From NCBI GenBank assembly GCA_017983955.1, contig JAGOAJ010000010.1, forward strand, positions 1-64,000: DNA of 64,000 nucleotides. Reading direction: 5' to 3'. This stretch comes from Burkholderiaceae bacterium. Lineage in GTDB: Bacteria; Pseudomonadota; Gammaproteobacteria; Burkholderiales; Burkholderiaceae_B. This document shows, one piece after another, positions 36,604 through 54,320 of the stretch; position 1 is the first letter of the stretch; each line of letters begins with the position of its first letter. The notes under the pieces were generated by a model. The model did not search any database, was not told where the DNA came from, and saw only the letters and a program-made list of their open reading frames with translations. Position numbers and translations under genes: made by a program.

Positions 36604-36605
36604 CG

Positions 36606-38723
36606 TTATGCTCCTACCTTGCCAACGTTACCCAGCAGCAAAATGACGCTGTGGGCGTCCACCGCATGAGTCGCGCTGGTCACTAGACTATCTTGCGTTT
36701 TAGGCCTGGCACTATTCAGACGGCAGGTCCAGCGCAGCACTGGCTCGCCTGGCAGATCAAAATCAATTTCCTGGTCGCTGGCATTCATCAACAGCAGAGA
36801 CACTTCAATCTGGCCATCAGGCAGGCTGCAAGCGCGGCGCAGGCCCAGCACCCTGCCCTCGGGGTAGTCCCAGGCATCCTGGCTCATGGGAATGCCATCC
36901 ATGTCATACCAGACGACATGGGCTATGCCGGGTGCCACCTCGCGTGCACCGCCATCAAAGCGCAAGCTATGTAAAGACGGGTATCTACGTCGCAACGCCG
37001 TCAGCTGTGCGACGTATTCTGTCAGGCTGCGGCCCGCCACGGACGCCGCCTGGGACCAATCCAGCCAGGATATGGCATTGTCCTGGCAATAGGCGTTGTT
37101 GTTGCCCTGCTGGCTATGGCCAAACTCATCACCGGCCAACAGCATGGGGGTACCATCAGACAGCATTACGGTAGCCAGCATGGCGCGCAATACATTGGCC
37201 CGCAAGTCTACGATGCCGACGTCTTCGACCGGCCCTTCGTGGCCCCAGTTATGGCTGAAATTTTCACCTTGACCGTCGGCATTATCGTCGCCGTTGGCCT
37301 CGTTGTGCCGGTTGTCATAGCTGACCACGTCTTGTGCGGTCAGGCCATCGTGGGACGCCAGGTAATGTATGGACGCCCAGGGCCGGCGATGCCGCCTGTC
37401 GAATAGGTCGGCAGACGCCATCAAGCGCCCAGCCAATTCGCCGCGCATACCTGCTTCACCGCCCCAGAATCGACGTATGGCATCCCGAAACTTGTCATTC
37501 CACTCGGCAAATACCGGCGGATGGTTGCCTAGTTGATAGCCGTCGGGCCCAAGATCCCAAGGTTCTGAAATTAGCTTAAGGCGGGACAGTACCGGATCTT
37601 GCAAGATGGCATCGAAAAAGCCCGAGCCAGGGTCAAAACCATCACCTTCGCGCCCCAGGGTTACGCCCAGATCAAATCGAAATCCATCTATTTGGTAGCT
37701 GGTCGCCCAATAACGCAGGGAGTCCATGACCATTTGCAGGACACGCGGATGCGACAGGTTAAGGGTATTGCCGCAACCGGTATCGTTGATGTAGTAACGC
37801 TCTTGCCCCGGAATCAAGCGATAGTAGCTGGCATTGTCCAGCCCCCGAAAGGCTAGGGTAGGCCCTAGCTCATTGCCTTCAGCGGTATGGTTGTAGACCA
37901 CATCCAGTATCACTTCTATGCCAGCGGCATGCAATCGCCGTATGGCCACGCGCAGCCTATCCGTGCTGCCTTGGTGCAAATAGGATGGCTCGGGGGCGAA
38001 GTAAGCCAGCGTGTTGTAGCCCCAGTAGTTACGCAGACCGCGCTGTACCAGAAAGTGATCATCCAATGCGGCGTGTACTGGTAATAGCTCAATGGCTGTC
38101 ACGCCTAAGGTCAGTAAATGATCAATAAAGCGCGGATCGCCCAACGCATCGCACTTACCGCGCAACTCCATATGCAAGTCCTCGCGCAACATGGACACGC
38201 CCCGTAAGTGCGCCTCGTAGATCACGGTTTTTGACCATGGCGTACGGGGTGCCGCTTGGGCTCCCCACTCAAAGCTATCAGCCGTCACCACAGCTTTGGG
38301 TATCAAGGCCGCTGTGTCGCGCCTGTCAAAGCTTAGGTCGGCTTTGGCGTGCTGAACACGGTAACCAAACAAGGCTTCAGACCAGCGCATGCTGCCGGTC
38401 AACTTACGCGCGTAAGGGTCCAGCAACAGATTATTGGGATTAAAGCGGTGACCACGCAGGGGATCATAGGGACCGTAGGCTCGGTAGCCGTACACCAAAC
38501 CAGGACTGGCATCCGGCAAATAGCCGTGCCAAACCTCGTCCGTACATTCCGGCAACGCCAGCCGCCTGACTTCCTTGCGCCCGCGTTCGTCAAATAGGCA
38601 TAGCTCTATTTTGCTGGCGTTGGCCGAGAAGACCGCAAAGTTCACCCCCAGGCCATCGCTGGTCGCCCCCAAGGGATAAGGTTGACCGGCCAGTAAAGCA
38701 TCGGCGGATGGGACAGCGCTCAC
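36606..38723 (-). CDS. glgX: Glycogen debranching enzyme GlgX
   Basis: A 705-residue GH13 isoamylase-type enzyme. Features: a CBM48 N-terminal domain ([20 protein letters not shown]), nucleophile in [15 protein letters not shown], acid in [16 protein letters not shown], and [16 protein letters not shown]. It starts with GTG, whose GTGA overlaps the glgB stop by four bases. It trims alpha-1,6 branches, giving linear dextrins for TreY and MalQ. Confidence 0.93.
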
Positions 38724-40609
38724 GATAAGTCGCCTTCAGGAATCAAGATCAGCGTCGCCAGCGGCGGCAAGGTCAGGGTCAAAGACTGCGCCTGACCGTG
38801 GGCTCCTTTTGTTGTGGTGCTAGTCATGCCCATATTTCCCAGGTTAGTCCCGCCATATCTCACGGCATCGGTATTCAAAACCTCCCGCCATGATCCGGCC
38901 ACGGGAACCCCGACTTCCCAGCCACTGCGCGGCACAGGGGTCATATTGACCACAACCAGAGCAAGTTGCGTGCCGTGACGCCGCACGAAAGCAAAAACGC
39001 TGTGCATAGGGTCATCAGCGATCACCCACTGAAAGCCTGACGGGTCAAAGTCGTTGGCGTGCAAGGCCGGCGTACGGCGATACAAGTGGTTGAGATCCTT
39101 CACCAAGGTCTGCATGCCCACATGCCAAGGATCAACCAAGGCGTCCCAGTTCAGTTGCGCGTCATGGTCCCATTCCATGCTTTGCGCAATTTCACCGCCC
39201 ATAAACAGTAATTTATTGCCGGGATGGCACCACATAAAGCCATAATAAGCACGCAAATTGGCAAATTTTTGCCAGCGATCACCTGGCATCTTCTCCAACA
39301 AAGCCTGCTTGCCATGCACCACTTCGTCATGCGATAGGGGCAAGACAAAGCGTTCCGAATAGGCATAAATCATGGAGAATGTCAGATCGTTGTGGTGGTA
39401 ACGCCTATGTATGGGATCGTGCTGCATATAGCGCAAACTGTCATGCATCCAGCCCATATTCCATTTGTAGTTGAAGCCTAAACCGCCTTCCTGCGTAGGC
39501 GCAGTTACCCCAGGCCAGGCGGTGGATTCCTCGGCAATGGTGATTGCGCCCGGGCAACGTTCGGCCACCAATTGGTTAAGCTGTCGGAAAAAAGAAATGG
39601 CCTCCAGGTTTTCACGACCGCCATAACGATTGGGCGTCCATTGACCCGGCTCACGGCTATAGTCCAAATACAACATGGACGCCACCGCATCAACGCGCAA
39701 ACCGTCCACGTGGTAACGCTCTAACCATTCCAGCGCGCTGGCCAGCAGGAAGTTACGCACTTCATTGCGTCCCATGTTGTAGATCATGGTGTCCCAATCC
39801 GGGTGCCAGCCCTGTTGTGGATCGGCATGTTCATACAGCGCCGTGCCATCAAAATAGGCCAGCCCATGCGGGTCTGATGGAAAATGCGCAGGTACCCAGT
39901 CCAGTATCAGCCCCAATCCAGCCTGATGGCAAGCATCCACAAAGCCGGCAAATTCGGCAGGCGTCCCATAGCGGGCAGTAGGTGCAAACATCCCCAGTGG
40001 CTGATACCCCCAGGAACCGCCAAAGGGGTGTTCGTTAATAGGCAGTAGCTCGATATGGGTAAAGCCCATGTCCAAGGCGTAAGCGATCAGGCGAGGCCCC
40101 ACCGACCGCCAGACGCTACCTTGCTCGTCCGTATGCCTCCAAGAGGCCAGATGTACCTCGTACACCGAGATGGCGGCGCCAGGCTGCTGGCGCTGATCGC
40201 GTAGCGCCATCCAATGTTGGTCTGTCCACACAAAAGGCGTGCTATCTGGCACCACCGATGCCGTCGCTGGCGCAAGCTCAGTCTGGCGCGCTAAGGGATC
40301 CGCTTTCCAAGGCAGGCGAGCACCATTACCGGCACGTATATCGTATTTATACAGGTCGCCAGCGACCACGCCAGGGATGAAAATCTCCCAAGCCCCACAT
40401 TCGACCCGTAAGCGCATCCGATGTGTATCAGAGGACCAGTGATTAAAGCTGCCAACCACCGACACCTGGCTAGCATTCGGCGCCCATACGGCAAAACGCA
40501 CGCCCGGCTGCCCATCCAGCGTTAACAGGTGGGCGCCCAGGCAATCGGCCAACTGCCAATGACGCCCCTGGGCGATTAAATACACATCCAGTTCACCCAA
40601 CAGATTCAT
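38720..40609 (-). CDS. glgB: 1,4-alpha-glucan branching enzyme GlgB
   Basis: A 629-residue GH13 branching enzyme. It lacks the first (N1) module of the 730-residue enterobacterial form and starts near the CBM48 domain ([21 protein letters not shown]). Catalytic residues: nucleophile in [19 protein letters not shown], acid in [12 protein letters not shown], and [13 protein letters not shown]. Its ATGA overlaps the treS stop. In GlgE-type systems GlgB branches the polymer built from maltose-1-phosphate. Confidence 0.94.
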
Positions 40610-43600
40610 GGCGTTCCCTTGACATTTAAGGGTTTTCCGTCACCCAGCAGACGGCGGCTGACCCGCACCAGCCCTGCCAACGGTATCCGTATCCAATCAT
40701 GCCGGTGCCCAGCCTCGTAGCACACCTCGTAGGCAGCTTTTTCCAACAGGGCCAAGTCCAGCATAACGGTATTCACCCCCTTGCCATCGGTGTACGCATC
40801 CAGAAAAGCGTGACTGGCGCTTAGGCAAAAATGATCCAGCAGTGCCTGCCTATGCTGCTGTAACGATGCGCCTGCCGCCACAGGCAACACTCCGGCTGGC
40901 GGGGACGTTTCGGTGCTACCAGTCAGCGCACCGGTATCTGGTGCTGCGGCAATATGCGCGCTGGCGTAATCAAACGACCGCAAGACACCCGCTACATCAC
41001 GCCAGGCCGTGCTTTTGGCGCGTCGCTCTTGCATGGCGCGGTTGGGCTCCCCCTCGAAATCAATTAAATAAACATCACCTTGAGCAACCAGCACCTGCCC
41101 CAAATGAAAGTCGCCATGGATACGAGTCACAGCCGCGCCTACGCAATCGGGTGCGGCGGCATCCAGCACAGCAATCAGAGCTTGCTGATGGTCATGCAGC
41201 CACTGCAGGTCGGTGTATGCGAGTTCAGGCAATGATTGGATGCTATCGGCTGCTTGTAGCGCATCAGCCAACATGCGGCGTATTGCACTTACCCACTGCC
41301 CAGCCCAAGCAGCATCGGCCAGTTGAGGCTGAAACGCCAATTCTGTGGTGGGCTGCCCCAATACCTGGTGCAACTGTGCCAGCCTGCGACCTATGGTTGC
41401 CGCCACGGCGTTGTAGCCTAATAGATCCTCTTCGTAATCGTCTGCGCTTTCCTCGGTTAAGGCCGCACTTTCAAGTATGCGCTCCAAGTAATCCAGCGTC
41501 CATGTCCAGGCATCCCCCTGATTAGCCACGTTCTTATGCAAGATGCCTAAGGTTCGTGGTGTGCCATTCGCATCAACACGAATAAGTTCGCCCAGCAAAG
41601 GAACCGAGTTCGCATAACCGGCCTGGGTCAGATAGCGATTCATTTCCGCTTCGGAATGTACGCCAGGCAAGGTTTTTCTGATCAGTTTCAAGACGGCGAT
41701 ATCGCCATACATCAGCGTACTGTTGGACTGCTCACCATGAAACCAGTCTATGACCGTATCGCCAGGGAAAACTATGTCTTGTAATGCGGGTTCGCCCTGA
41801 AAGCACAGCATGCCGCGCCCCTGCTCAGTTTGCAGCAGTATTTGGCGCTGAACGCGGATATTGTCCAGCAATGCCCAGGCAAACTCAGACACCAAAAAGG
41901 CGTCTGTCATCAGCCCTAGGTCGGACCCTCGGCGTACCCTGGCCATAGCGTATTGCGCTGGTTGGCCAGTAATCGCCTCGCCCCAGACCAGTGCCAGCGG
42001 CAGAAAGTACGTATCGCCATGATCTTCAGCGCCAACCTGAACTTCGGCCAGAAATAAATCCGTCTCGCCCGGCAGTGCTTCCACATAATTTATACGGACT
42101 GCCTCCATGACGGGGCCGCCAACAAACCAGCGCTGACGCCTAAGATACACAGGCAAGACCTCGTCACAGAAGGCGCGACGTGAACGCTCCAGCATCTGAT
42201 AGGCATTACGTTTGCGCAATACCAATGTGATGAAATCTGGCATTTGCTCGGGTGCCGCCACGTGCCAGGTCGGTGGCGCAGCAGTAGTACTTAGGTCGAA
42301 CCAGTAAAAACCATAAGGCGGCAAGCTCAGTAAATAAGGTGTTTCCCCCACAGTTGGAAAGGGCGTGCCGCCCAACAGTTCAACAGGCACAGCGCCCGCC
42401 ATAAAGGACAGGTCCAGCTCCACCGGTTGGGACGCATTGGACAAATTGGCTACGCACAGCAGGCTTATGCCCTGGTATTCACGCAGATAGGCCAGTATCT
42501 TGCGATTGCCGGGAAATAAAAATCGCAAGCTGCCGCGCCCAAACGCCTGTGTCGTCTGACGCTTGGCCAGCATGCGTCGAGTCCAATTCAACAATGAATG
42601 CGGGTCGCGCTGCTGGGCCTCGACGTTGACGGCTTCATAGCCATACAAAGGCCCCATCAATACCGGCAAAGGTAAGCGTTCTGGGTCGGCTCGGGAAAAG
42701 CCGCCATTACGATCCGGGCTCCACTGCATAGGGGTACGTACGCCATCGCGATCCCCCAGATGGATGTTGTCGCCCATACCCAGTTCGTCACCGTAATACA
42801 GTACCGGCGTGCCCGGCATGGACAACAGCAAACTATTCATCAGCTCTATGCGACGCCTGTCCCGCTCCAGCAAGGGCGCCAGCCTGCGCCGTATCCCCAG
42901 ATTGATACGCGCCAGTCGATCCGCTGCGTAGACATCCCATAAATAGTCGCGCTCGCTGCTGGTCACCATTTCCAGGGTTAACTCGTCATGATTGCGCAGA
43001 AATACCGCCCATTGGCAGCTGTCCGGTATCTCGGGTGTTTGCTGCATGATGTCGGTAATGGGAAAGCGATCAGCACGCGCTATGGCCATGTACATGCGGG
43101 GCATTAGCGGAAAATGGAATGACATATGACATTCGTCGCCGGTTCCAAAGTACTCCTGGGCGTCTTCAGGCCACTGATTGGCCTCGGCCAGCAGCACGCG
43201 ATCCGAGTATTTCTTATCCAAGGCAGCGCGTATCTTGCGCAGCACCTCATGGGTCTCGGGCAAATTTTCGTTATTTGTCCCTTCACGTTCAACCAGATAA
43301 GGCACCGCGTCCAACCGTAAGCCATCTACCCCCATATCCAGCCAGTAATACATCACGTTGATGATTTCTTTCAGCACCCGCGGATTGTCATAGTTCAGGT
43401 CGGGTTGATGCGCATAGAAGCGATGCCAGAAATACGCATTGGCGACTGGATCCCAGGTCCAGTTGGACTTTTCAGTGTCGCAAAATATGATGCGAGTGTC
43501 GGCATAGGCCTGATCAGTGTCTGACCACACATAATAATCACGGGCCGCCGAGCCAGGCTTGGCCTTTCTGGCCTTTTGAAACCAATGGTGCTGATCCGAC

Positions 43601-43959
43601 GTATGGTTGACCACCAATTCGATAATCACGCGCAAGCCACGCTCGTGCGCAGCGCGAATGAACTGACGCACATCGGCCAAACTACCGTAATCCGGATGGA
43701 CGCCACGGTAGTCGGCAATGTCATAGCCATCGTCACGCCGTGGAGATGGATAAAAGGGTAGCAGCCAGACCGTATTAACACCCAGGCTGGCGATGTAGTC
43801 CAAGCGCGCAATCAGTCCCTGGAAGTCGCCTACGCCATCATTGTTAGCGTCAAAAAACGACTTCACATGCAACTGATAAATGACGGCGTCCTTGTACCAG
43901 AGCGGATCGGCATCCACTACGTTCACAGGTGCTGGGGTCGTGCTTATACGTTTTTCCAT
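40606..43959 (-). CDS. treS: Trehalose synthase/maltokinase fusion protein (TreS-Pep2)
   Basis: A 1117-residue fusion. The first 550 residues are TreS (GH13), interconverting trehalose and maltose: [19 protein letters not shown], nucleophile near residue 217 in [10 protein letters not shown], acid in [12 protein letters not shown] and [13 protein letters not shown]. From about 600 on is a maltokinase with an aminoglycoside-phosphotransferase-like core: [12 protein letters not shown] (catalytic Asp) and [19 protein letters not shown] (metal-binding Asp). Together they turn trehalose into maltose-1-phosphate for GlgE. The ATG lies inside the end of glgE (16-base overlap) with AGGA upstream. Confidence 0.94.
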
Positions 43960-46946
43960 GGCTGTCCTGTGTAATCAGGCCCAGGCTCCAAACGCCATAT
44001 GGCGAAAGGCCGTTCGGGGGGCAGCTGTATATAAAAATCGGGGCGTTCCAGAGCGAAGACTTGATCGTCGTATAACTGACGTAGCGTGGGCCGCCCGCCT
44101 GGCCGCAGCTTAAACAACCAGAACGGGAAGTGCAGCCACCCCGACTCCTGGCCATGCGGATTCAAGGACACGGCGACCAACACCATGCTGTCGCCGGCCT
44201 CGCTGGATTTAGAAAAAAACAAAATCTGATCGTTGTCGGCCTGATGAAAACGCAGTCCAAGATGCGATTGCAAGGCGGGATTTTCACGCCTGATCTGATT
44301 AAGACGAGTAATTTCTGCAATGATGTTGCCTGGTCGCGTCATATCCCAGGCACGCAGTTGGTATTTTTCCGAGTCCGCATATTCCTCGCGGCCCGGCAAG
44401 GCCCGGGACTCGCATAGCTCGAAGCCGTTGTACATGCCCCATAAGCCAGACAAGGTCGTAGCCAGCGCCGCGCGTATCAGAAATCCTGCTCGCCCCGACT
44501 GCTGCAGAAAATACGGATTAATGTCCGGGGTATTCACAAAAAAATGTGGGCGAAAGAAATCAGCCACAGGTGGCGTATTCAATTCAGTCAGATAATCGGT
44601 TAATTCCTGCTTGGTGTTGCGCCAAATGAAATAGGTATAAGACTGTGAAAACCCTGCCTTGGCCAGGCGGTACATCATCTTGGGGCGTGTAAAGGCTTCG
44701 GACAGAAACACGGTATCGGGGTAGCGTTGCCTGACTTCGGCTAGCATCCACTCCCAGAATGGCAAGGGCTTGGTGTGTGGGTTGTCCACCCTGAATATCC
44801 TGACCCCCTGCGCGGCCCAAAACAACACAATATCGCGCAAAGCCACCCATAGCGCGGCACGCTGACCTTGATCAGCCCCGGGACTGTAGAAGTCTGGATT
44901 GACGATATCCTCGTAGCGCTTGGGCGGGTTCTCGGCCACCCGCAGAGAACCATCAGCGCGCCAATCAAACCATGCCGGATGTTGGGCCAGCCAAGGGTGA
45001 TCGGGCGAACACTGGATTGCAAAATCCAGGGCAATTTCCATATCATGGGCATGCGCGGCGCGGACCAAATGCAGAAAATCAACCAAGGTCCCCAGCTCGG
45101 GGTGTATGGCGTCATGACCGCCCTGCCACGAACCTATCGCATAAGGGCTGCCAGGATCGTCGGCTTGCGCCTGCAAGGCGTTATTACGCCCTTTGCGGTG
45201 CTGTAGCCCTATAGGATGTATGGGCGGAAAATACAACACGTCAAACCCCATGGCGCGCACAGCGGGCAGGCGCTGCTCGACATCCCGAAAGCTACCGTGC
45301 TGCCCTGGCGTTGGACTTTGCGAGCGCGGGAACATTTCATACCAACTGCCAAACTGCGCTTCACGCCGCTCTACCAACAAGGGATAAAGGCGTGTTGACT
45401 GAGTAACGAATCGGCGCTCTCCAGGCCCGCCCAGGGTCTTGGCTTCCAGCTGCTCCAGGGCAATGTCCTGCCCCGCCTCAGTCTTCTTGCGTATGACCTC
45501 TTGATGGCTGCTCCAGACATCAAGCCAGGCACGTACGGTATAACAATAAAGACCTGGTTCAGCCGCATAAAATACGCCCTGCCAGCGATCATTGTCCACG
45601 TGCTGCATGGGGACACTGCTCCAATTGTCATCCGCCACCGGCTTGTATAAAACTTCCGCGTCTATCTGGTCGTGTCCGTCCATGTACACATCTGCCTGTA
45701 CGTAAATAGCCTGGCCACGAATACGTTTAATGGGGAAACGGCCACCATCAACGACGGGACTGATATGTTCAATAGCTATACGCCCCGCTTGCAATGCAGA
45801 CTCGGCGGCCTGGGTACCAGGATCCGCGGACGCGACGGGCAGCGCAATGCTGGCATTGGTCTTTAGGGCCAACACCCTACACGCTGCCGCAGACAAGTCT
45901 GCCCTCCACCTATTGTCATTCGGCCACACCAAACGATAGCGACCAGGCAAACGTTGCTCGATGGTGTGCATATCCACGGCGACAGGGTGAGCATCATCGG
46001 GATTAATCAACAAGACTTGTCCAGGGGTTGACGCCGACTCCTTCCTTAACAATGCAGTGACACTAGCCCATGGCCCCGACAATAGGCTTAGCCTGATCGC
46101 TCCATCACCTTCTAATGACATTGTGCTGGTGAGCTCTTGCAGGGCTAACCTTCCAACGATTCTGGCCAGCTCTAAGGGAACCACTGTATGCCTGGCTATA
46201 AAGCAGGCAATCTGCAGGTCACGCCGCAACGCAGCAGTCCCCTGAGTAGGCGCAGATGGCGTCCAGGCCACATCCAAATCGGCCACGGGCGCAATCACTG
46301 GCGCCACGTGTAGTAGACGTTGCTGCTCTTGCACCAACCACTGGGCACGCCTATCCCACCAGGGCAAGGATGAAAACACCCCATCAAACCCCACACCCTG
46401 CAAATCGGCCATTTGCTGAGCTGTCAGGCCTGGCGTCCAGGCCAGAAACCAGGGGTAGTGATGCTGACCAGGCTGTGACTGCCCACGCACTCGCAGCAAC
46501 AGCTCACGCCAATCTCGGGCAGACAAGGCCGCCAAGCCAGTGCAACGAAAACCTTGGGCCCCGGCCTGAGTCCAGCGCGCCAAGCGCTTGGCCCAAAACG
46601 GCATCCAGGCTGTCCGTACACTGCCGCCAGGATCCACCTCTAAATCCATTAGCAGGCTTAAATGTCGCTGTTGGGTATCCTGCGCCATGCAGGACAAAAC
46701 CTGCGGCATCGCCGCCGTGCCAAACCATAGGGGGTTAGCCATGTCCTCGGGGTCGCCAGCGTCCTCGTCATCGGATGCTGGCCGTTTATCCAAGCCTGGC
46801 GAGCGCGTCAACGCTGGCGTCAGTAGTGCATCAAACCCAAGGTCCGCCGCCTCTTGGCACACCTCGCCCCAGCGGCGTTGCCACCCGACTGGCCCCGCTG
46901 CAAAATGCGCACTGGGTATACGGCACACTCGTTGTAGTTCAAACAA
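43944..46946 (-). CDS. glgE: Alpha-1,4-glucan:maltose-1-phosphate maltosyltransferase GlgE, long form
   Basis: A 1000-residue GH13 enzyme adding maltose from maltose-1-phosphate to glucan chains. The canonical part begins near residue 400 (GRFPIKRIRGQAIYVQADVYMDGHD); the nucleophile is D721 in FRVDNPHTK and the acid E750 in FLSEAFTRP. The roughly 390 residues before it are extra compared with the actinobacterial enzyme and contain degenerate GH13-like stretches (DLGFDALLTP, LLMDLEVDP, AQGFRCTGLAAL), suggesting a second, inactive barrel. The start is TTG at 46946, six bases after GGAG and overlapping glgA by eight bases. Confidence 0.9.
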   Translation of the reverse strand: MFELQRVCRIPSAHFAAGPVGWQRRWGEVCQEAADLGFDALLTPALTRSPGLDKRPASDDEDAGDPEDMANPLWFGTAAMPQVLSCMAQDTQQRHLSLLMDLEVDPGGSVRTAWMPFWAKRLARWTQAGAQGFRCTGLAALSARDWRELLLRVRGQSQPGQHHYPWFLAWTPGLTAQQMADLQGVGFDGVFSSLPWWDRRAQWLVQEQQRLLHVAPVIAPVADLDVAWTPSAPTQGTAALRRDLQIACFIARHTVVPLELARIVGRLALQELTSTMSLEGDGAIRLSLLSGPWASVTALLRKESASTPGQVLLINPDDAHPVAVDMHTIEQRLPGRYRLVWPNDNRWRADLSAAACRVLALKTNASIALPVASADPGTQAAESALQAGRIAIEHISPVVDGGRFPIKRIRGQAIYVQADVYMDGHDQIDAEVLYKPVADDNWSSVPMQHVDNDRWQGVFYAAEPGLYCYTVRAWLDVWSSHQEVIRKKTEAGQDIALEQLEAKTLGGPGERRFVTQSTRLYPLLVERREAQFGSWYEMFPRSQSPTPGQHGSFRDVEQRLPAVRAMGFDVLYFPPIHPIGLQHRKGRNNALQAQADDPGSPYAIGSWQGGHDAIHPELGTLVDFLHLVRAAHAHDMEIALDFAIQCSPDHPWLAQHPAWFDWRADGSLRVAENPPKRYEDIVNPDFYSPGADQGQRAALWVALRDIVLFWAAQGVRIFRVDNPHTKPLPFWEWMLAEVRQRYPDTVFLSEAFTRPKMMYRLAKAGFSQSYTYFIWRNTKQELTDYLTELNTPPVADFFRPHFFVNTPDINPYFLQQSGRAGFLIRAALATTLSGLWGMYNGFELCESRALPGREEYADSEKYQLRAWDMTRPGNIIAEITRLNQIRRENPALQSHLGLRFHQADNDQILFFSKSSEAGDSMVLVAVSLNPHGQESGWLHFPFWLFKLRPGGRPTLRQLYDDQVFALERPDFYIQLPPERPFAIWRLEPGPDYTGQPWKNV

Positions 46947-48594
46947 GCGATGCTCCTCGCGTCGGCCTCACGACGGCAAGCGCAGTGCGGTTGGGCGCGG
47001 CAACTGGCACCAACGCCAAGGACGTCGCGCCACGCACACGTGTCGCTATCGCCCCCATACGATTTACGTCCCGACGCGCCAGACCCAAGCGCCCCACTTC
47101 AGTACTTGTTTCAACCAGTGGATTACTGGCGGCGGTGGCGCATAAGTCGTGATAGCAACGGACATAAAGCGGGGCGACATGTGACCAGCCAAAATCTGCA
47201 GACATGCCATTACGTTGCATTAGCTGCCACAACGCAGGCAAGGCCTTAAGCGCAATGGCACGGTCTATTGCCGCGCTCATGTCAGCCGGCGCATCGCCAG
47301 AAAACAGCAAGCCAGTCGCGAAGCTCATGTCCGCATTAGGATCATCCCAGCCCGGATCGATGATGGTATCCACCATGCCGCCCACCCGTGAACAAATAGG
47401 TACGGTGCCATAGCGCATGGCATACAGCGGGGTCAGACCAAAGGGTTCGAAACGGCTACCATGCAATAAAACGTCAGCACCCGCGTGCAACTGGTGGGCC
47501 TGCGCCTCGTTATAGCCTATGTGTACTGCGCAACGCCCCGGGTAGCGGCTGGCCACCTCATGCAGCCCCGCCTCTATTTGCTTGTCGCCCTTCCCCAAGA
47601 TAGCCACTTGCACCTTGGGATGATCGTCCAGCACCATAGGTAGTACCTGGACCACCACATCGGCCATTTTTTGCGAGGTCAGTCTACTTCCCATAGCCAG
47701 CAGCATCGTTTGAGCATCCTGCTGCAGACCAAAACTGGCTTGTAAGCTACGTTTGCACTTGGCTTTATTGGCCATTTTGTCTACCGAATACCGATACTTG
47801 TGCAGGTGGCTGTCTTTTGCTGGATTCCAGGTCGCCATGTCTATGCCATTAGGAATAGCAATCAAATCGGCCCCTTTGTCTGCCAGCACCCCTTCCAGGC
47901 CGCAGCCAAATTGAGGCGTTAAAATCTCGCGTGCGTAGTGACGGCTGACCACGGTTACCTTATTGGCCAGTTGTATGCCCGCTTTCAGAAAATTCAGCTG
48001 CCCCCAGAACTCCAGGCACTGCGATGTGCAATAGGCAGGCGTTATACCCAAGGCATCGGCCATGCTCATGGGATAAACCCCTTGAAAAGCCACGTTATGC
48101 AAGGTCAGTACCGTCTTTACATCGACTACGCCTAGCTGATGCATGTACAGCGAGGTCAAGGCGGTATGCCAATCATGGCTATGTACAACATCAGGACGTG
48201 ACACGCCGGGTAAACCTTGTGCCACCCGTGCAGCCGCCTGCGACAAGGCAGCGAAGCGAATAGCGTTATCGGCGTAATCTACGCCCTGCTCATCGGCATA
48301 CACGCCATGGCGCTGATACAGCGTGGCATGTTCAAGCAATAACACCGGCACCCCCAGTGTTTTACATCTGCCCGACAACACGGTGGCAGACCCACCTGGT
48401 AAATCATTAAGCTTGGCTACCGCTTTCAGGCCAGATACCTGTCTGCCCGCATCAGGGTAAGCAGGCAACATCAAGGTAACGTGCGATCCGGCCGCTGCAA
48501 TGGCCGCTGCCATGCCGCTTACAGCATCACCCAAGCCGCCAGTCTTAGCCATAGGGAATGCTTCGGACGCCACCACAAGGATATTTAATGACAC
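46939..48594 (-). CDS. glgA: Glycogen synthase GlgA (GT5)
   Basis: A GT-B glycosyltransferase, 551 residues from the GTG at 48594. GGAG lies seven bases before this GTG but only one base before the ATG at 48600, so GTG is preferred. Features: ADP-glucose site KTGGLGDAVSGM, HSHDWHTALT, and GSRFEPFGLTPLYAMRYGTVP with the catalytic glutamate. The last 60 residues extend beyond the usual E. coli length and look poorly conserved. It extends glucan from ADP-glucose, but no glgC is visible here. A sigma-54 promoter stands about 40 bases upstream. First gene of the operon down to treY. Confidence 0.9.
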   Translation of the reverse strand: MSLNILVVASEAFPMAKTGGLGDAVSGMAAAIAAAGSHVTLMLPAYPDAGRQVSGLKAVAKLNDLPGGSATVLSGRCKTLGVPVLLLEHATLYQRHGVYADEQGVDYADNAIRFAALSQAAARVAQGLPGVSRPDVVHSHDWHTALTSLYMHQLGVVDVKTVLTLHNVAFQGVYPMSMADALGITPAYCTSQCLEFWGQLNFLKAGIQLANKVTVVSRHYAREILTPQFGCGLEGVLADKGADLIAIPNGIDMATWNPAKDSHLHKYRYSVDKMANKAKCKRSLQASFGLQQDAQTMLLAMGSRLTSQKMADVVVQVLPMVLDDHPKVQVAILGKGDKQIEAGLHEVASRYPGRCAVHIGYNEAQAHQLHAGADVLLHGSRFEPFGLTPLYAMRYGTVPICSRVGGMVDTIIDPGWDDPNADMSFATGLLFSGDAPADMSAAIDRAIALKALPALWQLMQRNGMSADFGWSHVAPLYVRCYHDLCATAASNPLVETSTEVGRLGLARRDVNRMGAIATRVRGATSLALVPVAAPNRTALAVVRPTRGASLV

Positions 48595-48631
48595 TACCAT
48601 TCTCCAATGTGAAAGTTTTACTTCACACCAG

Positions 48632-48647
48632 AGCAATAAGCGTGCCG
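48632..48647 (-). promoter_or_regulatory. Sigma-54 promoter for the glgA-treY operon
   Basis: On the minus strand CGGCACGCTTATTGCT (48647 to 48632) matches the -24/-12 consensus TGGCACGNNNNTTGCW with a single mismatch at the first base; GG and GC are separated by exactly ten bases. Transcription would start near 48621, leaving a leader of about 27 bases containing the GGAG used by the GTG at 48594. It lies just past the stop of the response-regulator gene. Confidence 0.85.
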
Positions 48648-48649
48648 CA

Positions 48650-50005
48650 CTACAGGTGGGCCGTCGCGTCCGTTTTGTGTGTGGGGCGCTCATCAAGCAT
48701 TTCGTATTCTTCCAACCGGTTATATAAGGTCTTCAGACTAATGCCCAACATTTCCGCTGCAGTCTTCTTCACGCCACCGCATTGCTTCAGGGTTGCCAGT
48801 ATCAACTGCCGATTGGCATCGGCCAAGGGCACACCTATGGGTACGGAAATTTCCATGTCCGCTGGTCCCATACTATGCAGATCAAAGGAATTGAAATCGC
48901 CAGTCACGACGTTGTCACTTAATATATAGCTGCGGTAGACAAAATTGCGCAGTTCGCGCACATTGCCTGGCCAAGCATAGTTCAACATGGCGGTCAGCAC
49001 CTCGGGACAAAATACCTTGCTAGTCTCGTATTCCTGATTCAATTGATCTAGAAAATACTGCGCTAGTTCGCAGATATCATCTTCGCGTTCGCGCAGGGGC
49101 GGCAGTTCCAACGGAAAGACACTAAGACGGTGATACAAATCTTCGCGTAAAGTGCCATTACTAACGGCCTGCTCTGGGTTACGGTTGGTGGCAGCCACCA
49201 CCCGTACATTGGCCACAATTTCTTCGTGTGATCCAACCCGCATAAAGCGTCCAGTTTCCAGCACCCGTAACAAACGCACCTGTAGTTCCATGGACATTTC
49301 GGTAATTTCGTCCAAGAATAGAGTACCGCCACGGGCCCGCTCAAAGTAACCTTTATGCTGACGATCGGCCCCCGTAAAACTGCCCTTTTCGTGACCGAAA
49401 AGCTCGCTTTCTATCAGGTTGGGCGAAATAGCGCCGCAGTTCACGGGTATAAAAGGTTCACTATGGCGCGGACTGCATAAATGCAGGGCTTCGGCGGCCA
49501 GCTCTTTACCGGTACCGCTTTCACCAACCAGCAAAACCGTAGCCCTGGTGGGCGCAACCTTCTCTAGGTGGGCGCATAGCAACTGTATGGCACGAGACTT
49601 GCCTATCAATTTGGCAAAGCAGTCTTTAGCACCAGTAACAGGAGGATTAGCCCGCAAACAGTTCAATGCGCTTAGAACCCCATGCAAACGTCGCAAGCTA
49701 ATAGGTTTGACTAGGTAGTCGACCGCGCCACAACGCAACGCTTCAATGGCGCTATCCACGCTGGAGTAGCCTGTCATGAATACAACCTGCGCACCTGGCA
49801 AAGCTAACTCTTTCCAGAACTCGATCCCATCGCCATCGGGTAATTGCATGTCCATCAGGACAACGTCCGGCTTCTGGCGTTCGATTTGAATCCGTGCCTG
49901 CCGGATGTCCGCCGCTATGGCGACGGTATACCCATGTTCAGTGGCGATGTCAGCGATCAGTTCTGCAATCTCCGGTTCGTCGTCGGTAATTAACAGATGT
50001 GGCAT
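48650..50005 (-). CDS. NtrC-type sigma-54-dependent response regulator
   Basis: A 451-residue three-domain activator. Receiver domain: acidic pocket at D8/D9, phosphoacceptor D52 in VVLMDMQLP, switch threonine in FMTGYSS and lysine in YLVKPIS. AAA+ domain from about 140: Walker A GESGTGKE, loop 1 GSFTGA (a serine variant of GAFTGA), Walker B GGTLFLDEI, and WPGNVREL. Fis-type helix-turn-helix at the C-terminus ends LGISLKTLYNRLEEYE. Its stop is three bases before the sigma-54 promoter of glgA, so it is the obvious activator. No histidine kinase gene is present in the window. Confidence 0.93.
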   Translation of the reverse strand: MPHLLITDDEPEIAELIADIATEHGYTVAIAADIRQARIQIERQKPDVVLMDMQLPDGDGIEFWKELALPGAQVVFMTGYSSVDSAIEALRCGAVDYLVKPISLRRLHGVLSALNCLRANPPVTGAKDCFAKLIGKSRAIQLLCAHLEKVAPTRATVLLVGESGTGKELAAEALHLCSPRHSEPFIPVNCGAISPNLIESELFGHEKGSFTGADRQHKGYFERARGGTLFLDEITEMSMELQVRLLRVLETGRFMRVGSHEEIVANVRVVAATNRNPEQAVSNGTLREDLYHRLSVFPLELPPLREREDDICELAQYFLDQLNQEYETSKVFCPEVLTAMLNYAWPGNVRELRNFVYRSYILSDNVVTGDFNSFDLHSMGPADMEISVPIGVPLADANRQLILATLKQCGGVKKTAAEMLGISLKTLYNRLEEYEMLDERPTHKTDATAHL

Positions 50006-50136
50006 ACATGGCCTTTTTAAAAGGTATGAATTTGATCGTACGTGCTTTACTGGGGATCAGGTGTAAGCGTATGCGTTAACTGCAACGATATTCCACATTT
50101 AAATACAACTCCGATCAAACGCCGTAGACTTTGCAC

Positions 50137-51093
50137 ATGTTTGCAGCCACAGAGTCCTTGGGGATCTCCCCGGCTGCCATCATGCTGGGTCGCGCGATTG
50201 CCAAGGCAGCACCTACGCAAGCCAATGTGCTTATTGTGGGGGAAAGCGGTACAGGCAAAGAGTTGGTTGCGCGTGCCATCCATGATCGCAGCCTGCGTAA
50301 CCAGGCGCCTTTTGTCGCCATCAATTGTGGCGCCATCTCGCCGTCCCTGGTCGAAAGTGCATTATTCGGTCACGAAAAAGGCAGCTTTACGGGTGCCAGC
50401 GCCACGACCGCGGGCTGCTTTGAGCAGGCCGATGGCGGCACGTTATTCCTGGATGAAGTCACCGAGATGCCGCTGAAAATGCAAGTACAGTTGCTGCGCA
50501 TTTTGGAGTCTGGTCGTTACCATCGGGTGGGTGGGACTAGCATGCGCGAAGTCCATGTACGAGTGGTAGCCGCCACCAATCGTAACCCCCTGGAAGCCGT
50601 CGCAGGCGGCCTGTTCCGCTCCGACTTATTTTATCGCCTGGCGGTCTTCTCGCTAAGGGTGCCGTCTTTGCGCGAACGCACCAGCGACATCGCCTATTTA
50701 GCGCAACGCTTTCTGGACGAACTGAACACCCAAGAAGGCACCCATAAAACTTATGCCCACGATACCTTCCAGCTACTAGACCAATACCCTTGGCCTGGCA
50801 ATGTGCGTGAGCTGAAAAACACCATAATTCGTGCTTTTATATTGGCTGATGATGTCATCGAAATACAGCCCCCCAGAACCAGCCAATGCCATCAGTCTGT
50901 CAAGCACAATGACCATCTGAAAATCACCATTGGTACGCCGCTGACGGTTGCACAGCACAACCTGATCACAGCGACACTGGAGCACTACAGCGGTGATCAA
51001 CGTCGCGCCGCCCTGGCACTAGGGATCAGTCTGAAAACGCTGTACAGCCGCTTGGGAAAAGCCCAAAAAAACAGCCCACCAAACTTACCGTGA
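50137..51093 (+). CDS. Sigma-54 activator lacking a regulatory domain (AAA+ plus Fis-type HTH)
   Basis: A protein of 318 residues from the ATG at 50137, divergent from the response-regulator gene. It begins almost directly with the AAA+ domain (LGRAIAKAAPTQANVLIVGESGTGKE), with GSFTGA, GGTLFLDEVTEM and PWPGNVRELKN, then a C-terminal helix-turn-helix ending LGISLKTLYSRLGKAQ. There is no receiver, GAF or PAS domain, as in PspF or HrpS. Those proteins are controlled by a partner or by their level. The recognition region is nearly identical to that of the neighbouring regulator, so the two may bind the same sites. The start is uncertain (no clear ribosome site; TTG at 50131 also possible). Confidence 0.88.
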   Translation: MFAATESLGISPAAIMLGRAIAKAAPTQANVLIVGESGTGKELVARAIHDRSLRNQAPFVAINCGAISPSLVESALFGHEKGSFTGASATTAGCFEQADGGTLFLDEVTEMPLKMQVQLLRILESGRYHRVGGTSMREVHVRVVAATNRNPLEAVAGGLFRSDLFYRLAVFSLRVPSLRERTSDIAYLAQRFLDELNTQEGTHKTYAHDTFQLLDQYPWPGNVRELKNTIIRAFILADDVIEIQPPRTSQCHQSVKHNDHLKITIGTPLTVAQHNLITATLEHYSGDQRRAALALGISLKTLYSRLGKAQKNSPPNLP

Positions 51094-51156
51094 TATCCAC
51101 ACACTGATGGGTATCTTTCTTACACAGCATCGGTAAATTCTGACCTTCGTTGCTGC

Positions 51157-51182
51157 TGGGCAATCAGCAATTGCGATGCCCA
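51157..51182. promoter_or_regulatory. Inverted repeat, candidate enhancer site upstream of rpoN
   Basis: TGGGCA and TGCCCA are arms of a 26-base dyad that also contains the palindrome GCAATTGC. It lies about 115-155 bases before the sigma-54 promoter at 51299, the usual distance for an activator-binding site of this class. No second copy was found, so it remains a candidate. Confidence 0.35.
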
Positions 51183-51298
51183 AAGCATTGTCCATATCCA
51201 GTCACATACTTTTTGCCTGACATAACGGCACGCTGACGCCCTTGCTCAGACACTTCAAGACATACCTAGATATCTAAGACTCATGTTGTTACCTGACT

Positions 51299-51313
51299 TG
51301 GCACGAGGATTGC
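51299..51313 (+). promoter_or_regulatory. Sigma-54 promoter in front of rpoN
   Basis: TGGCACGAGGATTGC matches every conserved position of TGGCACGNNNNTTGC, with GG and GC separated by ten bases. It is in a 280-base gene-free stretch and points to rpoN; the start site would be near 51325, about 50 bases before the GTG. This implies that the sigma factor activates its own gene. Confidence 0.88.
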
Positions 51314-51373
51314 GTGTTTAGCGAATAGGTCGGCGAATAAAGTCGCTATCCATAAACATGCAAGGAATTCCTC

Positions 51374-52819
51374 GTGGCACAACAACTGACTTATGAACTG
51401 CGTACCCGCCAGACCACCATACTGACGCCCAGACTGCAACACTCCGTCAAGCTGCTACAGATGTCGACGCTGGACTTTAATCGTGAGGTGGCTGACGCCA
51501 TTGCCAACAACCCTTTTCTGGAAACGACAGAGGAGACTAGCAACGACACGGCCATGCCCGACCAGGAGCCACTACCGGTAACAACAGATACGCCACCAGA
51601 GCCTGGGGACAGCGTCCCGGAAGCGGAAGTCAGCGATGCCTATGTGGATCCGCCATCCAGCTACTCCGGGGACTATCCCACCCCGCGCAAAACTGACGCC
51701 CCCGAAAGCGACGTCGGACAATGGGCACGTAGCAGCAATGATCTGCACGATATTTTGCGCCACGACCTGTGCGGCTATCACCTCAATGAGCGGGAACAGT
51801 ATCTGGTCGAATACATCATAGAAGCCCTGGATGATGACGGCTACCTACGCACCCCGTTTGACGAACTGGCGCCCCAAGATCAATTCAACCCTCGCGTGCA
51901 ACCGGAGGAATGGCATACTGCCCTGAAATTGGTGCAGCAACTTAGCACGCCAGGCCTGGCAGCGCGTGACTTGGCTGAATGCCTGAATCTGCAATTGCAC
52001 GCCTTGCCCGACCAAGAGGTCGGTAAAGCAATCGCCCTGGACATTCTGCAACGGGGTATGGACAGACTGGCGCGCTGCGACTACACCGGACTTGCCCGCC
52101 AACTGAATTACACCGAAGAAGAAATTCACGCTGCCTGCTGCCTGCTGCGCACCCTGAATCCACGCCCGGGGGCACGGTACAAATCGCTGGACCCATCCTG
52201 CTACGTTATCCCCGATGTGGTGGTGCGTAAAGTCGGTAAATTATGGGTAGCCACTTCCAACCACGAGGCGGTACCACAAGCGCGCCTGAACACGGTTTAT
52301 GCTCAGCTATTTCGTCAAGCACGTAGTCAAGATAGAGCGCCTATGTCACAAGCCTTGCAAGAGGCGCGTTGGCTGATGCGTAGCCTGGAACAACGCACGA
52401 CGACCATACAGCTCGTCGCCCAAGCCATAGTGGCGCGACAGCAAACATTTTTCGATTATGGAGAGATTGCGCTTAGGCCGATGATGCTTAGCGAAATTGC
52501 CGACGAACTGGGCATGCATGAATCCACCATCTCGCGGGCCACCAGCAATAAATACCTGGCCTCGCCACGCGGAATTTTTGAATTCAAGCTGTTTTTCTCG
52601 CGCGAGCTGACTACCCGTACAGGCGGCACGTGTTCGGCCGTATCGGTACGGGCCAGGATACAAGAGCTGATCACTGCAGAAAACCCCAAGCAACCACTGT
52701 CTGATGTCGTGCTAACCAGCAAATTAGCTCTGGAGGGCATCATCGTTGCGCGCCGTACCGTATCAAAATACCGTACCCAGATCAATCAACCCCCTGCCGA
52801 AATGCGTAGGGCGCCTTAG
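51374..52819 (+). CDS. rpoN: RNA polymerase sigma-54 factor RpoN
   Basis: A 481-residue sigma-54 protein starting with GTG, with AAGGAA seven bases before it. Region I (LTPRLQHSVKLLQMSTLDFNREVADAIANNPFLE) is intact, region II is acidic and proline-rich (about 50-115), and region III has the helix-turn-helix ELGMHESTISRATSNKYLASPRGIFEFK and the RpoN box ARRTVSKYR. The usual chromosomal neighbours of rpoN (lptB, hpf, ptsN) are missing; instead two sigma-54 activators and a sigma-54 promoter are adjacent, suggesting a dedicated extra copy. Confidence 0.94.
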   Translation: MAQQLTYELRTRQTTILTPRLQHSVKLLQMSTLDFNREVADAIANNPFLETTEETSNDTAMPDQEPLPVTTDTPPEPGDSVPEAEVSDAYVDPPSSYSGDYPTPRKTDAPESDVGQWARSSNDLHDILRHDLCGYHLNEREQYLVEYIIEALDDDGYLRTPFDELAPQDQFNPRVQPEEWHTALKLVQQLSTPGLAARDLAECLNLQLHALPDQEVGKAIALDILQRGMDRLARCDYTGLARQLNYTEEEIHAACCLLRTLNPRPGARYKSLDPSCYVIPDVVVRKVGKLWVATSNHEAVPQARLNTVYAQLFRQARSQDRAPMSQALQEARWLMRSLEQRTTTIQLVAQAIVARQQTFFDYGEIALRPMMLSEIADELGMHESTISRATSNKYLASPRGIFEFKLFFSRELTTRTGGTCSAVSVRARIQELITAENPKQPLSDVVLTSKLALEGIIVARRTVSKYRTQINQPPAEMRRAP

Positions 52820-52834
52820 GTCCATGGCCTAGTC

Positions 52835-52849
52835 AGGCACAGCGCTTGC
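52835..52849 (+). promoter_or_regulatory. Sigma-54 promoter in front of the UDP-glucose-dehydrogenase-like gene
   Basis: AGGCACAGCGCTTGC has the invariant GG and GC at the correct ten-base spacing and the CAC and TT of the consensus, differing at positions 1 and 7. It is in the 64-base gap after rpoN; the start would be near 52861, 23 bases before the ATG, leaving room for the AGGAG at 52873. Confidence 0.72.
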
Positions 52850-52883
52850 CGATACTAGCTGAAGACGGTATTAGGAGCACCAC

Positions 52884-54320
52884 ATGAACATTGCTATTGT
52901 CGGCACAGGCCACCTTGGTCTGGTCGTAGGCGCATGCCTAGCGTCCAATGGTAACCATGTCTGTTGCATTGATCATAATATCGAAAAAACGCAGAATCTT
53001 AATGCTGGCCATCTACCCTTTCACGAGCCCGGTCTGACCGATCTCGTGTCTGAAGGTAGACAACAAGGCTTGCTGTGCTTCACCCATGACCTGGCCGCAG
53101 GCATTAAAAATGCAGAGCTGATTTTTCTGGCAATAGGCGTACCGGCTACCGATTATGGACGCGCTAATCTGAACGGCCTTTTAAGTTGCGCCAAGCAGCT
53201 AAGCCCTTTGCTACAAGAAGGGGCCATAGTCGTTATTGCCTCCACCGTACCGCCTGGCACTTGCGAGCTGCTGCATACCCTATTAAATAAAGCCAGACCT
53301 GCCCAACAGGCAGGCGCTATACATGTCGCAGCCAACCCGCAGTTTCTGTCGGCAGGGCATGCTATTACAGATTTTCAGCGACCTACCCGTGTGGTGATAG
53401 GCAGCCCGGACACACATGTACAACAGGTGTTGGAAACACTGTATGAACCCTGCTCCGCCACGGGCGCGCCTGTTCTAGTGATGGACACGCGTACAGCGGA
53501 GTTTGCGAAATATGCGTGCAGCGCCATGCTGGCAACACGTATCACCATGATGAATGAATTGGCCAGTATGGCTGGACAGATGCAGGCCAGTGTCGCAGCT
53601 ATGCGCCAAGTGATCGACCTGGAACCTGGCCTGCGCACGCCGCATCCCCAGCCCAGCGCCGGGTATGGCGGCCCCCATCTGCCAGCAGACTTGCTGGCGC
53701 TGATAAAAACCGCCCAGGATGTGGATGAGCCCGCCTACCTATTGCGCAGCGTAGAACGCGCTAACCATAGACAAGGTCGGCTGCTGTTCGAAGCCATACT
53801 CCAGCATTTTTCCCATGTATTGCGGGGACGTCGCCTGGCAGTGTGGGGGCTGTCCTATGCACCAGGCACCGATGATGTTCGCCAAGCACCCAGCATACGC
53901 CTGATTACTCAACTATTAGAGGCGGGTGCGCGTGTCCAGGCCTATGACCCTGTCGCATCTGACCAGGCCCAGCAAGCAATTGCCAATCATCGTCTGGCCT
54001 TTGCACCAACAGCCTATGCCGCTTGTGCTGGCGCGGACGCCCTAGTCGTGATGACCGCAGGCGAAGAATTTCGTCACCCTGACTTCGCCATGCTGGCCAA
54101 GCTACTAAACACCGCTGCTGTGTTTGACGCCAGCACCTTATATGACACTGACACTGTAAATCACCATGGCCTACAGCATTATCCACTATGGCAAAAACGA
54201 CAACCTGTGCTACAACAACCCTTTAATCGGGTAAATTATCCTAATAATCAAATAGCCGACCCGGCCTTCAATAACCGGGAAATTATCCCATGTAGCCCGT
54301 CCAGACACGATCAGCCGTAG
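52884..54320 (+). CDS. UDP-glucose 6-dehydrogenase-like protein, catalytically degenerate
   Basis: A 478-residue member of the UDP-glucose/GDP-mannose dehydrogenase family, with an N-terminal NAD fold (MNIAIVGTGHLGLVVGACLA), the STVPPGT loop and a C-terminal UDP-binding domain (WGLSYAPGTDDVRQAPSI). The active site is altered: the family motif GYGGSCFPKD reads GYGGPHLPAD, so the catalytic cysteine is His265 and the lysine is Ala268; NPEFLREG reads NPQFLSAG, removing two glutamates; and KYAANA reads KYACSA. Oxidation of UDP-glucose therefore seems unlikely. A non-catalytic nucleotide-sugar sensor or a new specificity is possible. AGGAG precedes the ATG. Confidence 0.85.
   Translation: MNIAIVGTGHLGLVVGACLASNGNHVCCIDHNIEKTQNLNAGHLPFHEPGLTDLVSEGRQQGLLCFTHDLAAGIKNAELIFLAIGVPATDYGRANLNGLLSCAKQLSPLLQEGAIVVIASTVPPGTCELLHTLLNKARPAQQAGAIHVAANPQFLSAGHAITDFQRPTRVVIGSPDTHVQQVLETLYEPCSATGAPVLVMDTRTAEFAKYACSAMLATRITMMNELASMAGQMQASVAAMRQVIDLEPGLRTPHPQPSAGYGGPHLPADLLALIKTAQDVDEPAYLLRSVERANHRQGRLLFEAILQHFSHVLRGRRLAVWGLSYAPGTDDVRQAPSIRLITQLLEAGARVQAYDPVASDQAQQAIANHRLAFAPTAYAACAGADALVVMTAGEEFRHPDFAMLAKLLNTAAVFDASTLYDTDTVNHHGLQHYPLWQKRQPVLQQPFNRVNYPNNQIADPAFNNREIIPCSPSRHDQP

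Follow-up and report, generated by a model that had tools for sequence, protein, structure and literature searches.

The window analyzed here, a 64,000-nucleotide stretch of contig JAGOAJ010000010.1 from a Burkholderiaceae bacterium (GCA_017983955.1), contains a gene for a second sigma-54 factor (rpoN2) linked to two sigma-54 activators, an NtrC-type response regulator (RR) and an enhancer-binding protein without a receiver domain (EBP), and to an operon for storage glucan and trehalose. Our reading, to which we assign a probability of about 0.6, is that the window encodes the core regulators of a two-tier sigma-54 relay, in which RR and EBP act with sigma-54 to turn on rpoN2, and RpoN2 then serves a regulon of stress, envelope and storage genes. 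As far as sequence analysis can tell, the RR-EBP-rpoN2 module, which is often found near storage-sugar and trehalose genes, probably acts as a stress-response control unit. The reading is built on gene content, linkage, co-occurrence, the conservation of sigma-54 sites and of an upstream dyad, and the absence of recognizable RpoS.

Composition and distribution of the module

Open reading frame (ORF) calls and Pfam and TIGRFAM profile scans recovered the genes of the locus as a first-pass annotation had described them (RR, EBP, rpoN and an eight-gene operon), and a pattern scan recovered its three -24/-12 sites. The annotation's central observation, that activators and targets are linked to a second sigma factor, is likewise supported. 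The product of rpoN2 matches PF00309, PF04963 and PF04552 above cut-off and is a sigma-54 factor, not a member of the RpoS family; it may work like a general stress sigma factor but is not one. RR and EBP are bacterial enhancer-binding proteins (PF00158 and PF02954 above cut-off), each with the GSFTGA variant of the activator loop. Among 53 module activators the loop reads GSFTGA in 44 and GAFTGA in 6, with no match in 3. The window's genome (62 contigs, 94% complete) has one further, different rpoN on contig C5, whose product we call RpoN1, and three further full sigma-54 activators (contigs C47, C52 and C27), along with three weak activator-domain matches in longer frames; L083 and L084, the two other activators of this genome that cluster with those of the module, carry GAFTGA. 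The RpoN box has Ser in 38 of 40 RpoN2 proteins versus Ala in the genome's own RpoN1, the only RpoN1 compared.

By reading of the sequence, the receiver domain of RR keeps its acidic pocket and phosphorylation site (D8, D9, D52, T78 and K100). No histidine kinase was recognized beside RR at the locus. One possible sensor for the module is an ABC-transporter protein (cluster c46) found in the rpoN2 loci of three genomes, G204, G205 and G113 (L065, L050 and L076); the only member scanned, L065:6189-8840, combines an ABC transporter, a receiver domain and a histidine-kinase-type ATPase domain (E 4e-5, below cut-off).

Taking a score of at least 390 bits as presence, we found rpoN2 in 113 of 268 genomes of the family. 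Its named relatives come from Alcaligenaceae, among them Pollutimonas, Candidimonas, Parapusillimonas and Pusillimonas. None of 86 genomes from other families of the same order reached 480 bits, the best match scoring 420.8 (G304). In 27 of the 268 genomes we also searched for RR, and an ortholog of at least 500 bits was present in all 8 with rpoN2 and in none of the 19 without it, a co-occurrence that is only suggestive of a dedicated activator-sigma pair. The genomes without RR include G026 and G128, the latter from the window's own genus. G128 is 99% complete, and rpoN2, the RR ortholog and GlgE were all not found in it, a natural absence. In G082 two module RR orthologs share one contig, and another contig carries an rpoN2 match limited to residues 96-480 (G082:C40 and G082:C64).

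The maltosyltransferase GlgE (E 1e-60 or better) follows the same distribution, with 95 of the 113 genomes with rpoN2 carrying it versus 4 of the 155 without (Fisher 3e-48, without phylogenetic correction); the four are G084, G132, G171 and G235, and G132 and G235 are fragmented assemblies. In 40 of the 95 genomes GlgE and rpoN2 are no more than 40 kb apart, and in 34 they are on different contigs. For 40 of the 113 genomes we fetched the rpoN2 locus (12-20 kb): RR and rpoN2 share one locus in 29 of these, and glucan or trehalose genes adjoin RR in 13. Elsewhere (L172-L174 and L071) the RR-EBP pair lies near glgA, and rpoN2 is about 18 kb from glgE across a run of glycan genes. In 20 further loci collected around glgE, the order glgA-glgE-treS-glgB-glgX-treZ was identical in all 20.

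The family appears to lack RpoS, because the RpoS model scored above cut-off in none of the 268 genomes, where the best listed matches were long, RpoD-sized frames, as compared with 40 of the 86 genomes from the order's other families. The literature on RpoS in Bordetella and Alcaligenaceae that we searched, including the available part of PMC2194791, yielded no statement on this family.

Sigma-54 sites, promoter classes and predicted regulon

Matches to TGGCAC-N5-TTGC number 20 in the window at one mismatch or fewer, and 131 at two or fewer versus 114 +/- 10 by chance; such a count is weak evidence by itself. The 40 rpoN2 loci contain 62 exact matches to GGCACR-N4-TTGCW against 4.1 expected from the genome-wide rates of the same genomes, an enrichment of about 15-fold, and the backwards control pattern occurs twice. 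We called a site strong if it scored at least 13 within 300 bp upstream of a gene, a level reached by 3.4% of random stretches. Strong sites precede rpoN2 in 33 of 40 cases, counted over the window and 39 of the fetched loci (L063 left out), and glgA in 7 of 9 in the first set of loci. In the 20 loci around glgE, the glgA site was strong in 8, weaker in L179 and not found by that pattern in 11, so that the overall figure for glgA is 15 of 29. High frequencies were also seen for c5, a glycosyltransferase-like gene between glgA and RR (10/13), and for the linked BON-domain gene (6/7); some other stress-type families linked to rpoN2 reached the threshold only in part, with 3/8 (c15), 2/4 (c38), 2/3 (Ysc84) and 1/3 (BON lipoprotein). 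Comparison genes in the same loci, named by sequence, had almost none: asparaginase 0/15, TRAP transporter 0/17, pseudouridine synthase 0/20, Kbl 0/10 and Tdh 1/10. The site before the UDP-glucose dehydrogenase-like (UGDH-like) gene is weaker, scoring 13.3 in the window, 10.8 in L050 and 16.7 in L054, and is the least supported of the window's three. An exact consensus, TGGCACGAGACTTGC, also stands at 49588-49602 (+) of the window, antisense inside the RR gene; no gene start is nearby, and it is possibly a chance match.

Upstream of rpoN2 we found a conserved dyad, TTAC-N7/9-GTAA, in 31 of 40 regions versus 1.85% of 4,000 random 350-bp stretches (a narrower earlier pattern, now superseded, had given 3/40). 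Its usual form is CACTTCTTACA-N5/6-CGGTAATTT. The core of the window's dyad lies about 165-180 bp before the -24 element of rpoN2, a usual distance for an enhancer. The dyad is also present at all 7 of the divergent BON promoters and is rare elsewhere (2/9 glgA, 2/13 c5 and 1/10 DUF883 regions); it was not found in the upstream regions of RR and EBP (0/53), c15 (0/8), c21 (0/7) or asparaginase (0/15). An enhancer common to all targets was sought by a palindrome search over 43 upstream regions. Its score was above that of shuffled sequences (for example, 53.9 versus 25-30 at width 16), but the best matches were weak, mixed and unordered in position, and we do not trust them.

At the linked genes, the base before GGCAC tends to separate two classes of promoter, for which we picked the gene classes after inspecting the sites. 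It is T in 23 of 26 rpoN2 sites versus 2 of 51 sites at other linked targets (Fisher 3e-14). We extended the comparison to 88 typed genomes of the 268, setting aside the incomplete G028, G034, G091 and G092 (groups g2 and g8), with most other genera outside it. In g8, net non-T sites average 19.5 per genome with rpoN2 (n=6) versus 2.1 without (n=7; P=0.0017), and T sites 8.2 versus 5.6 (P=0.07). In g2, the 40 genomes with rpoN2 have a mean of 14.6 non-T sites as compared with 1 in G026, which lacks it, and a mean of 12.9 T sites as compared with 10 in G026.

The window's genome contains 17 exact sites versus 4 for the backwards pattern. Nine of these precede genes for a BON lipoprotein, an EEP-family protein, a small low-complexity secreted protein, a PRC-barrel protein, an undefined secreted protein, a DUF883 protein (ElaB/YqjD-type), a hemerythrin, an undefined membrane protein and GlgA, with a Pfam scan covering five of the nine; the other 8 lie, by reading, in or near unrelated genes. 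In a second, complete genome (G007), where we examined 30 of 35 sites, T sites precede glnA, a nirB-like gene, rtcB and rpoN2, and non-T sites (A, C or G) precede genes for a CsbD protein, small acidic proteins and others, while several sites of both classes are inside genes or before genes that could not be named. Of these genes, glnA, nirB and rtcB were named by sequence and CsbD by Pfam scan. Near rpoN2 in other genera we found genes for DUF883, DJ-1/PfpI, PLD-type, Ysc84, PRC and BON proteins. A run of glycosyltransferase, SDR, heptosyltransferase and carbamoyltransferase genes adjoins rpoN2 in L041-L044, L050, L054, L061, L065 and L071; in most of those loci a BON gene with a sigma-54 site heads the run, and the carbamoyltransferase is present in 9 loci.

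The proposed relay and its alternatives

In the relay that we propose, a signal would phosphorylate RR, and RR, the receiver-less EBP or both would bind the dyad upstream of rpoN2. Their action would switch on the T-class promoter of rpoN2, most simply and probably together with RpoN1, the housekeeping factor. The same GSFTGA-type activators would then open RpoN2 holoenzyme for transcription of the glgA-to-treY operon and the NDP-sugar dehydrogenase gene, as well as dispersed genes of envelope and stress type (BON, PRC-barrel, DUF883/ElaB, hemerythrin, CsbD, Ysc84 and others); in the promoters of these genes the base ahead of GGCAC is mostly A, C or G and not T. As output the cell would gain storage glucan, trehalose and a hardened envelope, as in a general stress response. 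The signal, the assignment of activators to targets and of the two sigma-54 factors to promoters, and the physiological role are what we infer in this scheme. Since RR and EBP have no strong sigma-54 site upstream (0/53 in the rpoN2 loci), any feedback would pass through rpoN2 only, and then only if RpoN2 reads its own promoter. For the same reason we reject a positive loop via the activators, and with it the full loop proposed in the first-pass annotation.

Two other parts of that annotation had to be narrowed. It had called the module self-contained, but its predicted targets are dispersed across the genome, and rpoN2 itself has a promoter of the usual TGGCAC class, which RpoN1 would be expected to read. 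It had also described the module as governing storage glucan and trehalose, but the operon seems to be one component of a wider group of stress and envelope genes. The conservation of linkage and promoters in relatives, which it had proposed as a check, was largely borne out, with glgA as a partial exception.

Several observations weigh against the relay. A strong glgA site is missing from 12 of the 20 further loci, including L162-L164. The stress-type families linked to rpoN2 reach a score of 13 only in a minority of cases: DUF883 1/10, c21 2/7, PRC 2/7 and 0/3, DJ-1 2/5, EgtD-like 1/6, PLD-type 0/7 and 0/4, SDR 0/6 and c49 0/3. Several of the families below the threshold carry weaker sigma-54 matches. 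Apart from rpoN2 and the divergent BON genes, no trustworthy shared enhancer was found at the targets. The label of stress genes rests on protein families and on judgement; L121 and L127 have no Pfam match, and L119 was outside the scan. Nor is the class split absolute in the window's genome, where 4 of the 9 targets carry T-class sites. Elsewhere, G004 and G029 in g2 have rpoN2 and only 0 and 2 net non-T sites, like G026 with 1; G207 in g34 lacks rpoN2 and has 13 non-T sites as compared with a mean of 9.0 in its relatives with rpoN2; and genomes without rpoN2 in g3 and g4 average 8.6 (n=9) and 6.7 (n=10). A strict rule that non-T sites require rpoN2 is therefore not upheld. Finally, 155 of the 268 genomes have neither RpoS nor rpoN2, and the module is therefore no universal replacement for RpoS.

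Some of these exceptions would be expected if RpoN2 were a redundant spare, with RpoN1 reading all of these promoters and RR and EBP alone conferring specificity. Both site classes fit the general sigma-54 consensus, non-T sites are kept without rpoN2 in g3, g4 and G207 and are few despite it in G004 and G029, and in the available text of a study of Bradyrhizobium, both of its RpoN proteins bound most tested promoters alike in vitro (PMC13207237). Nevertheless, we consider a redundant RpoN2 unlikely: non-T sites drop almost to background in the g8 genomes without rpoN2 and in G026 while T sites persist, RR co-occurs with rpoN2, and the RpoN box residue is specific to the lineage.

The glycan runs beside rpoN2 in several genera, with their leading BON gene and its sigma-54 site, and the NDP-sugar dehydrogenase in the window would suit a module that mainly controls envelope and exopolysaccharide, the glucan and trehalose genes feeding surface polysaccharide. 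Such a role also accords with the proposal, made in the part of Francke et al. 2011 available to us (PMC3162934), that the exterior of the bacterial cell is under sigma-54 control. The hemerythrin, CsbD and DUF883 targets, however, look cytoplasmic or related to membrane stress, and we regard a mainly envelope-directed module as quite improbable. As for the possibility that the window's three sites are chance matches and their linkage accidental, the 20 near-matches in the window speak for it, but sites, dyad and linkage are all conserved in relatives. For rpoN2 and glgA we reject chance on the conservation of their sites, and for the three sites together it is very hard to credit.

The relay has a broader form that we put forward tentatively, and which may well prove wrong: in part of this RpoS-less family, RpoN2, its two activators and the non-T promoter class would have assumed the role that a general stress sigma factor plays elsewhere, as an ATP-activated cascade from sigma-54 to sigma-54 with GlgE-type storage and trehalose as core output. 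To our knowledge, it is often unclear how bacteria without RpoS, SigB or EcfG mount a general stress response. The module would offer such a family a concrete candidate, with named genes, a promoter class, an enhancer and natural losses for comparison. A sigma-54 promoter stays silent unless an ATP-driven activator acts on it, so a general stress regulon under sigma-54 would be unusual in being tightly off in the absence of a signal. It would also be a case of how duplicated sigma factors might divide promoters between them, through one base before GGCAC and one residue of the RpoN box.

Related systems and layout of the locus

New here is the linked sigma-54 relay proposed above, widespread in a family that appears to lack RpoS. 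Among the matches listed by our searches (literature on a second rpoN with stress, on Achromobacter, on CsbD and BON, and on glgE with rpoN), we found no description of an RR-EBP-rpoN2 module. Control of GlgE-type metabolism by sigma-54, for which the first-pass annotation knew of no such module, has already been reported: in an rpoN mutant of Pseudomonas fluorescens, glgA, glgX, glgB, glgE, malQ, treZ, treY and treS are lower (PMC8202526). The same genes are thus RpoN-dependent there, and the available text of that study mentions no linked rpoN or second sigma factor.

The other comparisons likewise draw on the available parts of the papers cited. The Rrp2-RpoN-RpoS pathway of Borrelia resembles the proposed relay in that an enhancer-binding regulator and sigma-54 make a second sigma factor that runs an effector regulon, but the second factor there is RpoS, whereas here it would be another sigma-54, with effector genes linked to it (PMC2940757, PMC4014564). 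Cereibacter (Rhodobacter) sphaeroides has several copies of RpoN, and those that have been studied each have a dedicated activator and genes, such as RpoN3 with AprX, and its RpoN1 and RpoN2 discriminate promoters by the base at -11; those copies are concerned with Nif, flagella and CtrA control, whereas the present system has stress and storage genes, a linked RR-EBP-rpoN2 and a distinguishing base before GGCAC (PMC11999139). RpoNp of Bradyrhizobium DOA9 is, like RpoN2, a second RpoN tied to stress adaptation, with a predicted motif shift from TGG to CGG, but it is encoded on an alphaproteobacterial megaplasmid, and most promoters tested in vitro were bound by both RpoNs (PMC13207237). In Bordetella pertussis, of the same family, the gene for the sigma-54 activator BP2158 has a near-perfect sigma-54 site of its own, unlike RR and EBP (PMC11722255).

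The features of the locus are collected in Table 1. The glg/tre operon, 30211-48600 (-), consists of eight genes that overlap or are tightly packed, and contains glgE, the treS-maltokinase fusion and a branching enzyme (glgB, by homology and order only), the genes that mark a GlgE-type glucan pathway. Divergent from RR, the plus strand carries EBP, rpoN2, the NDP-sugar dehydrogenase gene and an aldo-keto reductase gene, in that order.

Table 1. Genes, sigma-54 sites and candidate enhancer of the locus, in window coordinates
Feature	Position	Strand	Remarks
glgA	46939..48600	-	Gene 1 of 8 in the operon; start ATG 48600 or GTG 48594
glgE, maltosyltransferase	43944..46946	-	Pfam GlgE_dom_N_S at residues 388-504, GLGE_C
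treS-maltokinase fusion	40606..43959	-	TIGR02456 and TIGR02457 above cut-off
glgB	38720..40609	-	Named by sequence and order; same-place homologue in 20/20 loci
glgX	36606..38723	-	Named by sequence and order; same-place homologue in 20/20 loci
treZ	34750..36603	-	TIGR02402 above cut-off; same-place homologue in 20/20 loci
malQ	32832..34757	-	ORF; named by sequence
treY	30211..32931	-	ORF, last of the operon; named by sequence; homologues near RR in some relatives
Sigma-54 site of glgA, CGGCACGCTTATTGCT	48632..48647	-	Non-T class; inside the 49-bp gap before glgA
RR, NtrC-type response regulator	48650..50005	-	REC-AAA+-Fis; GSFTGA loop
EBP, sigma-54 activator without receiver domain	50137..51093	+	AAA+-Fis, no REC; GSFTGA loop
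Conserved dyad with TTCTTACACAGCATCGGTAAATT, candidate rpoN2 enhancer	51114..51142	+	Core 51120-51136
Sigma-54 site of rpoN2, TGGCACGAGGATTGCG	51299..51314	+	T class; 60 bp before rpoN2
rpoN2, second sigma-54 factor	51374..52819	+	AID, CBD, DBD; RpoN box ARRTVSKYR
Sigma-54 site of UGDH-like gene, AGGCACAGCGCTTGCC	52835..52850	+	Non-T class; 33-34 bp before gene
UDP-glucose/NDP-sugar dehydrogenase (UGDH-like)	52884..54320	+	TIGR03026 above cut-off

The GlgE protein encoded at 43944-46946 (-) has an N-terminal extension of about 385 residues ahead of its N/S domain, which is matched in several relatives at about 30-42% identity.

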